Shown: one piece after another, positions 28,631 through 32,139 of the stretch
Layout: each line of letters begins with the position of its first letter
Numbering within the stretch: the first letter of the stretch is position 1
DNA from: Mucinivorans hirudinis
Lineage (GTDB): Bacteria > Bacteroidota > Bacteroidia > Bacteroidales > Rikenellaceae
Direction: 5' to 3'
Assembly (NCBI GenBank): GCA_000723505.1
Contig: HG934468.1
Coordinates: forward strand, 1,396,798-1,460,797
DNA: 64,000 bases
Translations under genes and position numbers: made by a program
The notes under the pieces: generated by a model
What the model saw: the letters and a program-made list of their open reading frames with translations, nothing else
Told to the model about the DNA's origin: nothing
The model's database searches: none

Positions 28631-28652
28631 TTACGATATTATCTTTCTTTGT

Positions 28653-28690
28653 AGGGGGCGAGGCTTGCACCCGCCCCCTGTTTTATTATG
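28653..28690 (+). terminator. Intrinsic terminator after the beta-galactosidase gene
   Basis: AGGGGGCG and CGCCCCCT form an 8-bp GC-rich stem with an 11-base loop, followed by GTTTTATTATG. It begins 22 bases after the stop codon. Confidence 0.85.
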
Positions 28691-28692
28691 AT

Positions 28693-28891
28693 TAAGTGGG
28701 GAAAAAATAATTAATGGTACATTTTTTCGAGTCTATTTTTTAGCAGATTTTTTATTTTGAATCCGAAAATGTAGCGGGCTACATTGAGGATTTGAAATAA
28801 AAAATCTGCTAAAAAATAGACCGAAATATAAAAACAGTTCCTTAATCATTACCCCATTAAAAATGTACAATTAATTCTTTTTCACCACTTA
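28693..28891. repeat. MITE-like nested palindrome, about 200 bp
   Basis: The core (28731-28821) has two perfect 27-base inverted arms (28731-28757 and 28795-28821) starting GTCTATTTTTTAGCAG. Inside them are two more paired blocks (AATCC/GGATT and AATGTAGC/GCTACATT), so almost the full 91 bases can pair. Outside, imperfect inverted repeats of about 33 bases (28693-28726 and 28859-28891) start with TAAGTGG. No open frame is inside. It is a non-coding element bounded by inverted repeats, lying between a terminator and the next gene; mobility is inferred. Confidence 0.7.
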
Positions 28892-28894
28892 GCT

Positions 28895-29800
28895 ATGCAA
28901 CAGACCTTTATTTTACCCGACGATTACCAAGGCAGAGTTATTGCAACCCTTTTTGAGCGCATTGCGCCAAGCTCGGACAAGGCAATACTTTACATTCACG
29001 GTTACATTGACTATTTTTTTCAGGAGCACCTTGCCGAACACTTCAACAAGGCGGGGTATAACTTTTATGCTCTGGAACTTCGCAAGTACGGGCGCTCGCT
29101 CCTACCACACCAAAGAGCCTTTTACTGCCGCTCGCTCACAGAATATTTTCCGGAGATAGACCTTGCATTGCAGACCATCAACGGCGAGGGATGCAAAGAA
29201 ATATCTCTTATGGGACACTCCACCGGCGGGCTTACAACCTCCCTCTATATGAGCCAAGGCAGGGAACGCGGGCGAGTCAATAGCTTGATACTTAACAGCC
29301 CTTTCTTTGAGTTCAATACACATTGGTTCAATCGCAATATCTCGATTCCACTCTCTGCATTTATCTCACGACTCTTTCCATACGCCCACAAAGCGGGAGA
29401 ACTTTCCGAACATCTGGCAGCGAGTATGCACCTATCTATGAAGGGGGAGTGGGAGTATGACTTGGCGATGAAGCCTGCCGCGGATGTGCCGCTCGACTTT
29501 GCGTGGCTCGGGGCGGTGCGCGCAGGGCAGAGGCAGCTCAAAAAGGGGTTGCATATCAACGTGCCTGTGCTGGTAATGTACTCATCGAAAAGCATTTGGA
29601 GCAAACAATGGGGCGATGACTTTCTGCGCGGCGATTCGGTGCTAAACGTTAGAGATATAGCTCACTACGCGCCGCGATTGGGGGCGGATGTCACGCAAGT
29701 CGAGATTGAGGATGGGATGCACGACCTCACACTCTCGCGCAAGGATGTGCGCGAGAAAGTTTTTGAGACTATGCTAAACTTCCTTCAATCAAACCATTAA
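28895..29800 (+). CDS. Alpha/beta hydrolase (serine aminopeptidase S33 / monoacylglycerol lipase-like)
   Basis: 301 aa, no signal peptide, so cytoplasmic. It has the oxyanion region ILYIHGYIDYFF, the nucleophile elbow GHSTGG (Ser around residue 110), a cap region, and a late aspartate/histidine pair (VPVLVMYSSKSIW, DGMHDLTLSRKD). The family (Hydrolase_4) includes lysophospholipases and monoglyceride lipases; the substrate is unknown. Its 3' end overlaps the convergent sirtuin gene by 32 bases. Confidence 0.88.
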   Translation: MQQTFILPDDYQGRVIATLFERIAPSSDKAILYIHGYIDYFFQEHLAEHFNKAGYNFYALELRKYGRSLLPHQRAFYCRSLTEYFPEIDLALQTINGEGCKEISLMGHSTGGLTTSLYMSQGRERGRVNSLILNSPFFEFNTHWFNRNISIPLSAFISRLFPYAHKAGELSEHLAASMHLSMKGEWEYDLAMKPAADVPLDFAWLGAVRAGQRQLKKGLHINVPVLVMYSSKSIWSKQWGDDFLRGDSVLNVRDIAHYAPRLGADVTQVEIEDGMHDLTLSRKDVREKVFETMLNFLQSNH

Positions 29801-30480: not shown

Positions 30481-30526
30481 TGAAAGAGTTGTCAAAATTA
30501 TCCAAATTGTTTAATGCCGAGTTAAT
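30481..30526 (-). promoter_or_regulatory. Dispersed repeat copy 2, forming the sialidase stop and sirtuin promoter
   Basis: The 27-base repeat (30526-30500, minus) encodes the last residues of sialidase (L-T-R-H-stop) and is followed by TAATTTTG (30500-30493), a perfect -7 element, then GACAACTCTTTCA (30493-30481). The sirtuin ATG is 25 bases after the -7 box. The same 44-46 base cassette occurs at 47200-47243. Confidence 0.75.
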
Positions 30527-32139
30527 GTTTTGGGATTCTCAGAAGCCCCCATCATAATCTCATCAAGCCCAACCTTCATAAAGGTCATCTGCGCCTGACT
30601 GCCCTCGAAAAGTATGCCGATTGTCTCTTGGTCCACGCTCGTGATTGAGGAGTAGCCAAAGCTGTCGAACTCATCCAAAACCACCCGCTCGTGCCACGTG
30701 TTACCATCGTCAAAGCTCGCCTTGAGGGTCATATTGTTTCGGCGGTCGCGACTATTGGGATTTACGAACAACAGCACAGTGCCACCCCTGTATTTGTGCT
30801 TATGAAGGCTTGCCATACAGGTGGGTTCAATTAAGGCGTTGCGTGAGGTATGGTGCTCAGTCCAGGTTTTGCCCAAATCTTTTGAAACGGCTATCGCCCT
30901 GCCATTGCCCTCGCCCCTGCCGTTGTTGCCATTGAGGCGCATATTGAGCATCAGTGAGCCGTGAGAGAGTTCTACCACATTGCACTCGGTGGTGTTGTAA
31001 TACGCCGGTTTGCTCGTAGTCCAACTCTTGCCGCCATCCTTACTCCACGTAATATTCGAGAAGGGGTAACCCACCGAATCACGCCCCTGAGTGGGCATAA
31101 CCAAGGTGCCGTCTTCCATTGTAATACCACTTCCCGGCGCCGGCGCCCATAGCCACCAACTCTCCTGCTTACACATACGAGTGAGATTCACGGGTTCACT
31201 CCAACTCTTTCCATCATCCCCACTGGTGGTAATCAGAAATTGACTTGTCTGCTTCACATCAAAGCCGGCTTGCGACCCCCTATTACTCCACTGGTGATTC
31301 CACTCCTTCGAGTTTTCGTTGAGTCCCTCGACCCAAACACCCTCGGCATTTATCACCCCATACATCCACAATCCGGAAACGATAATCGTGCCGTTCTTCT
31401 TATCCACCATAACATTGGCATCGCTCACTCCATTGAATCTCGGGGGTAGCCCACCCCACTCGCCCATATCGAGTACCGACACCTGCTTGTCCCAGGTGTT
31501 GCCAGCGTCCGTACTTCGACGCATACCTATATCGATGTTGCCCTGCAAGTCGCGTGAATTTTCGATACGATTGTCCCACACCGCAATAAGCGTTCCGTTG
31601 TTGGTTGTGGCAATGCCGGGGATACGATATGTATCCACACCATCGTCACCGCGCTGACGCAGAGCCACGCCAAGGCGATACTCCCCCCTTCCCTCAACCC
31701 TCTGATAGCCTCGGTTCGTCTTTATGCCGACACACTCTACGGTGAGTTTGCCAAGCAGATCAACCTCATCGTTCAGTTGAACAAAAACTGTGAAGTAGAG
31801 CGTATCCTTTACCTCTAAATCACCTCTGAAAACCATCCTCTTGTGGGGGTTCTGTGCCATTGAAAAGCTATTCTCGGGGGTGAATTTCTTCGCCCCGTCC
31901 GAATATCCTACCCAAACCGATTTGACATCTCTCAAATCAGACGCTCCGCCCAATTCCAACACTATCTCCTTCACCTGCGTGGGTTTGTCGGTTATAAATT
32001 CCACCTCGAGAGTGGGATTCGTCTTCTTGAGGGTGAGAACCGGAATCCGGTAGATATTAGTGGTGGTCTTGGGTGCTCCGTAAATGGCACAAATGCCCAG
32101 CACGATACAAAGCACGGTAAAGGTTATTCTCTTCATCAA
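30511..32139 (-). CDS. Exo-alpha-sialidase, GH33
   Basis: 542 aa with a signal peptide (start at 32139 or the second Met at 32136). An N-terminal BNR-associated jelly-roll domain (about 25-150) precedes the six-blade propeller. The propeller opens with YRIP (of the F/Y-R-I-P arginine motif) and has five Asp-boxes: STDAGNTW, SGDDGKSW, SKDGGKSW, SKDLGKTW and SFDDGNTW. It releases terminal sialic acid from host glycoconjugates, normally the first step in mucin O-glycan breakdown. No nan catabolic genes are adjacent, so freed sialic acid handling must be encoded elsewhere. Confidence 0.95.
   Translation of the reverse strand: MMKRITFTVLCIVLGICAIYGAPKTTTNIYRIPVLTLKKTNPTLEVEFITDKPTQVKEIVLELGGASDLRDVKSVWVGYSDGAKKFTPENSFSMAQNPHKRMVFRGDLEVKDTLYFTVFVQLNDEVDLLGKLTVECVGIKTNRGYQRVEGRGEYRLGVALRQRGDDGVDTYRIPGIATTNNGTLIAVWDNRIENSRDLQGNIDIGMRRSTDAGNTWDKQVSVLDMGEWGGLPPRFNGVSDANVMVDKKNGTIIVSGLWMYGVINAEGVWVEGLNENSKEWNHQWSNRGSQAGFDVKQTSQFLITTSGDDGKSWSEPVNLTRMCKQESWWLWAPAPGSGITMEDGTLVMPTQGRDSVGYPFSNITWSKDGGKSWTTSKPAYYNTTECNVVELSHGSLMLNMRLNGNNGRGEGNGRAIAVSKDLGKTWTEHHTSRNALIEPTCMASLHKHKYRGGTVLLFVNPNSRDRRNNMTLKASFDDGNTWHERVVLDEFDSFGYSSITSVDQETIGILFEGSQAQMTFMKVGLDEIMMGASENPKTLTRH

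Follow-up and report, generated by a model that had tools for sequence, protein, structure and literature searches.

A TA-bounded palindromic element upstream of a hydrolase gene in Mucinivorans hirudinis belongs to a multicopy family of probable MITEs

A nested palindrome between a beta-galactosidase gene and a hydrolase gene

Mucinivorans hirudinis M3T, a member of the Rikenellaceae from the medicinal leech (PMC4319616), has a genome of 3,149,227 bases in a single contig. In the 64,000-nucleotide stretch of this genome that we analysed (hereafter the window), a 199-bp nested palindrome running from TA to TA is found between a beta-galactosidase gene and an alpha/beta-hydrolase gene (Table 1). 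A sequence-only reading had described perfect 27-base arms enclosed by imperfect 33-base outer repeats, with no coding capacity; on recheck the coordinates proved exact, and every frame of the 199-mer contains 3–7 stop codons. The 5' end of the element reads TAAGTGG and the 3' end ACCACTTA. The two terminal repeats are identical at 22 of 33 positions in an ungapped alignment and align better with a gap, the left repeat having one extra A. The RNA of the element folds into one long hairpin of -78.2 kcal/mol, compared to -29.0 kcal/mol for shuffled sequences (z -12.2; 0 of 200 shuffles as good), and the same hairpin is obtained with the reverse strand and with DNA parameters (z about -11 to -13).

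Table 1. Coordinates of the palindromic element and of the adjacent features (positions in the window)
Feature	Position	Strand	Basis or remark
Terminator-like hairpin 3' of the beta-galactosidase gene, outside the element	28652..28680	+	fold -20.7 kcal/mol; then TTTTAT
Whole element	28693..28891	.	limits are where homology to three other near-full copies stops (92-94%, BLAST)
Left terminal inverted repeat, TAAGTGGGGAAAAAATAATTAATGGTACATTTT	28693..28725	+	
Left inner arm, perfect 27 bp	28731..28757	+	
Central hairpin tip, ATGTAGCGGGCTACAT	28769..28784	.	sequence and fold
Right inner arm, perfect 27 bp	28795..28821	-	
Right-side stretch, mostly unpaired (bulge in the fold; limits approximate)	28824..28860	.	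alignment and fold
Right terminal inverted repeat, minus-strand reading TAAGTGGTGAAAAAGAATTAATTGTACATTTTT	28859..28891	-	
Alpha/beta-hydrolase gene, outside the element	28895..29800	+	Pfam PF12146; several homologues align from residues 2-6

From its predicted fold, the hairpin that precedes the element looks like the terminator of the beta-galactosidase gene; it was not among the calls of an automatic consensus scan, and a scan of the region for sigma-70 promoter and terminator consensus sequences gave no matches. The window element itself holds no Bacteroidetes-type promoter motif, and near three other copies such motifs sit in the flanks, outside the copies. The hydrolase start codon is backed by homologues to within a few codons, and the right outer repeat indeed ends three bases before it (28891, with the ATG at 28895). 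The further claim that this repeat must contain the translation signals of the hydrolase gene is a positional argument, and nothing shows the element supplying such signals. The element would have inserted 3' of the beta-galactosidase terminator and just before the hydrolase start codon. Transcripts entering the hydrolase gene from upstream would then carry a long hairpin in their leader; any effect of the element on this gene is presumptive. No orthologue of the hydrolase gene was found in same-genus genomes, and the empty-site comparisons given below concern other loci of the family. Close to these genes, a by-eye reading of the translation alone predicts a sialidase-like gene (30511–32139, minus strand), in keeping with a mucin-degrading lifestyle.

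A family of related elements of different lengths

The census of copies rests on pattern, BLAST and covariance searches; as the elements used to build the covariance model came from this genome, the scores it gives them are circular. About 35 related elements were found, with the common end TA-AGTRGKGAAAAA. Four are near-full copies (genome positions 765609, 1425490, which is the window copy, 1586997 and 2213411), which lie at unrelated loci and share 91–96% mutual identity. Three copies of 76–77 bp consist of the right 69 bp, including the right-side unpaired stretch, attached directly to the extreme left end. The junction is at GAAAAATAA, which in the alignment occurs at both places in one full-length copy, and these copies therefore look like deletions between GAAAAATAA direct repeats. 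Three sister elements (163, 164 and 228 bp) have a core related to that of the window element, with G-C in place of one A-T stem pair, both sides being changed. The remainder are about 25 mini-palindromes of roughly 30–58 bp, which contain little beyond the two ends joined; about a dozen solitary unpaired ends are also present. The copies lie at unrelated loci and nearly all run from TA to TA. A second, unrelated palindromic repeat of ~70 bp (CATAAATTCTGTCGTC...GCTTGC...AAGAATTTT), which contains CGTC and is possibly a CGTC-type REP, occurs in about 20 copies or more (L019:1374-1446; loci such as L250-L265) and is also nested within the 228-bp sister element. At genome positions 835777–836040 (L105), a 57-bp mini-palindrome precedes a degenerate long element, within which this second repeat is again present, in the other orientation.

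Alignment of 29 elements gave the end consensus TAAGTRGKGAAAAA, with TAAGTRG on both sides. TA is present at both ends in 23 of them, and the palindrome halts at the TA, the flanks not extending the pairing; the reading-frame argument at one locus aside (see below), the terminal TA could belong to the element instead of being duplicated. Mini-elements were aligned as fixed 16-base arms around an artificial 4-base loop. The arms of the elements co-vary: 30 double-change cells were counted versus 14 expected from shuffles, and 11 of 16 pairs were changed on both sides versus 4 expected. Some stems are perfect over 15–21 bp with a non-consensus sequence. This co-variation may reflect either selection for the hairpin or template switching that corrects one arm from the other.

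Neighbouring genes could be called for 33 elements, all intergenic: 21 between tandem, 7 between convergent and 5 between divergent genes. That all orientations are represented argues against a plain terminator. The one exception to the intergenic rule is a copy inside a Wzy-like gene. A few elements overlap the final codons of the adjacent gene and provide its stop codon, as expected if the TA within TAA were a tolerated target and the element restored TAA. One 77-bp copy (genome 135948–136024, L007) gives the upstream gene a TGA stop codon and an element-derived C-terminus. Another 77-bp copy (L008) sits 8 bases before the start of an MlaE-like gene. With the Bacteroidetes-type promoter motif TTTG-N20-TANNTTTG immediately 5' of it, just upstream of genome position 1527864, this copy probably forms the leader of that gene.

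Among the genomes searched, the family is restricted to M. hirudinis. The end motif has 40 sites in the M. hirudinis genome, versus 0 for a reversed-pattern control; across 267 other Rikenellaceae genomes, only 4 stray one-mismatch matches occur. BLAST with the element against 60 relatives gave no convincing match, and no clear member turned up when 40 relatives were searched with a covariance model of the ends. The GTDB r220 species scan returned only 7 exact single-end matches, all isolated and with no convincing partner end; 5 viral matches were likewise isolated and lacked a convincing partner end. Plasmid and phage collections gave no match, and Rfam only generic miRNA-like hairpins below gathering scores. 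The palindrome is therefore neither single-copy nor a terminator conserved at this locus in distant relatives, the outcome that would have told against the sequence-only reading.

Insertion and mobilisation

Comparison with sister genomes and homologues showed that elements of the family are insertions. The ftcD-hutU gap contains a 197-bp copy in M. hirudinis, versus ~87 bp (G002) and ~22 bp (G003) between the aligned gene ends, with no element, in two sister genomes; likewise, the ctp-leuS gap of a third (G001) lacks the mini copy found in M. hirudinis. The sister genomes being incomplete and diverged, these filled/empty comparisons hold at the locus level, not to the base. In the strongest case, the 164-bp sister element (genome 2703295–2703458) lies inside a 660-aa Wzy/O-antigen-ligase-TPR gene (genome 2702590–2704572; L017:797-2779, minus strand). 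Homologues from several genera align on both sides of the element and lack residues ~372–425. When 162 bp (the element without one of its two TAs) are removed in silico, the frame is continuous again and encodes a protein of homologue length; the insertion amounts to 54 codons in frame. The frame would not survive a net gain of 164 bp, whereas it survives one of 162 bp, and the sequence at this locus therefore supports duplication of a TA target; this is one locus, at which later small changes could have restored the frame.

IS630-family transposases insert at TA and duplicate it. We consider it very probable that the window element is a MITE, one of the family in M. hirudinis M3T, mobilised in trans by a TA-target DDE transposase, likely of the IS630/Tc1 type. 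Such a transposase, acting in trans, would recognise both ends of the element and carry it to new TA sites, mainly intergenic, duplicating the TA. Deletions arising later inside the hairpin, some of them between short direct repeats, would then yield the 76–77-bp forms and probably also the mini-palindromes. We infer both the transposase family and the mobilisation in trans. The genome contains 15 DDE_3 (IS630-family) loci, among which no terminal repeat matching the element was found. IS630B, present in three copies (L065:940-2024; L064 and L066), has TA-flanked ends TAAGTATG and TAAGTACC and a transposase split over two short ORFs; its ends start with TAAGTA, the only part in common with the element, the overall similarity being no more than expected by chance. 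IS630A, IS630B and IS630C were each rejected as direct parent, as their ends and interior are unlike the element. More generally, the search of the genome for a full-length, autonomous IS sharing the terminal repeats, one of the checks proposed with the sequence-only reading, gave none, and no partnered ends appeared in the viral or genome scans either. The parent IS is probably lost or unrecognised, and a lost or distant parent would likewise yield no matching IS.

The proposal that the palindrome is a MITE is thus supported by the multicopy family, the TA ends and the evidence of insertion, minus an autonomous partner. The elements are short (199 bp for the window element) with no transposase or other coding sequence, are present in multiple copies at non-homologous loci, have terminal inverted repeats with precise ends, and occupy sites that are empty elsewhere at the locus level (ftcD-hutU, ctp-leuS and the Wzy homologues). 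These are the general features of MITEs, apart from target duplication, which a single locus supports, and the missing partner. Two further observations count against the MITE reading: the mini-palindromes fall short of the usual length of MITEs, and the co-variation of their arms exceeds what simple decay after insertion predicts.

Alternative readings and known palindromic repeats

A terminator or stem-loop regulator of the hydrolase or the beta-galactosidase gene, evolved in place, would account for a hairpin very stable on both strands, for the presence of some mini copies between convergent genes and for the co-varying arms. However, the near-identical copies at unrelated loci already largely refute it, and another hairpin, resembling a terminator, is found immediately 5' of the element, 5 copies sit between divergent genes, one relative of the element is inside a coding gene and the sequence is missing in relatives; we hold an origin of this kind to be highly improbable. 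The same low credence is given to a palindrome of the REP/BIME type moved by a RAYT (Y1) transposase. GTRG occupies positions 4–7 of nearly all ends, the mini copies are REP-sized and GTAG-tagged REPs have been described (PMC3733652). However, no match to Y1_Tnp (PF01797) was found in the genome by a search that was positive in E. coli and four other controls, GTRG is paired within the stem at both ends instead of forming a one-end tag, and the TA borders with a net insertion of 162 bp better fit a TA-target DDE element.

The long elements could be MITEs and the mini-palindromes a separate functional class, RNA-processing or protein-binding hairpins under selection, as suggested by the excess of double-change cells (30 versus 14) and two-sided pairs (11 versus 4) and by the perfect 15–21-bp stems of non-consensus sequence. 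This division is unlikely: the mini-palindromes have the TA borders and end consensus of the long elements and no consistent position relative to genes, and template-switching correction from arm to arm would yield the same pattern with no selection. Less probable still, and doubtful on present evidence, is a self-standing class of TA-bounded palindromes able to shrink to a bare 33–34-bp hairpin and still spread, with a stem actively kept palindromic and a transposase that recognises the hairpin rather than a classical terminal repeat.

Several known systems resemble the family in part. RUP, the repeat unit of pneumococcus, is a MITE linked to IS630-Spn1; it is ~100 bp long and, like the M. 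hirudinis element, has TA termini and occurs as many noncoding, intergenic copies, and its target is TA, as is probable for the M. hirudinis element (PMC2229807). In contrast to RUP, whose ends match a resident IS630, the M. hirudinis element has no matching resident IS; its terminal repeat is longer and the whole element is a hairpin. The Correia/NEMIS elements of Neisseria, which likewise end in TA, have ~24-bp terminal repeats, are transcribed into long stem-loops and fall into two main size classes set apart by an internal stretch (PMC2229807), but their sequence is unrelated. RNase III processing has been proposed for NEMIS. Rickettsia palindromic elements (RPE) are palindromes of ~150 bp found in frame within genes (PMC10969869), as is the 164-bp copy in the Wzy-like gene; however, the M. 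hirudinis elements are mostly intergenic, only one copy having been found within a gene, and the CGTC tag of RPE, present at one end (PMC3733652), contrasts with TAAGTRG at both ends here. GTAG-tagged REPs and BIMEs are likewise short palindromes of restricted distribution with GTRG near their ends, but the M. hirudinis genome has no RAYT, and the tag of its elements is base-paired and occurs at each of the two ends.

The genome paper of M. hirudinis mentions many repeats and does not describe this palindrome family (PMC4319616), and our literature search found no paper linking the genus Mucinivorans with MITEs. The probable MITE family of this cultured gut symbiont appears not to have been described before. 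Its most unusual feature is the copy inserted in frame in a gene for cell-surface sugars: here a palindromic element clearly contributes 54 in-frame codons to the Wzy/O-antigen-ligase-like protein, comparable to the cases documented for RPE. Because element lengths grade from 228 bp to ~34 bp and the arms co-vary, both the shrinkage and the upkeep of palindromes can be tested within a single genome.
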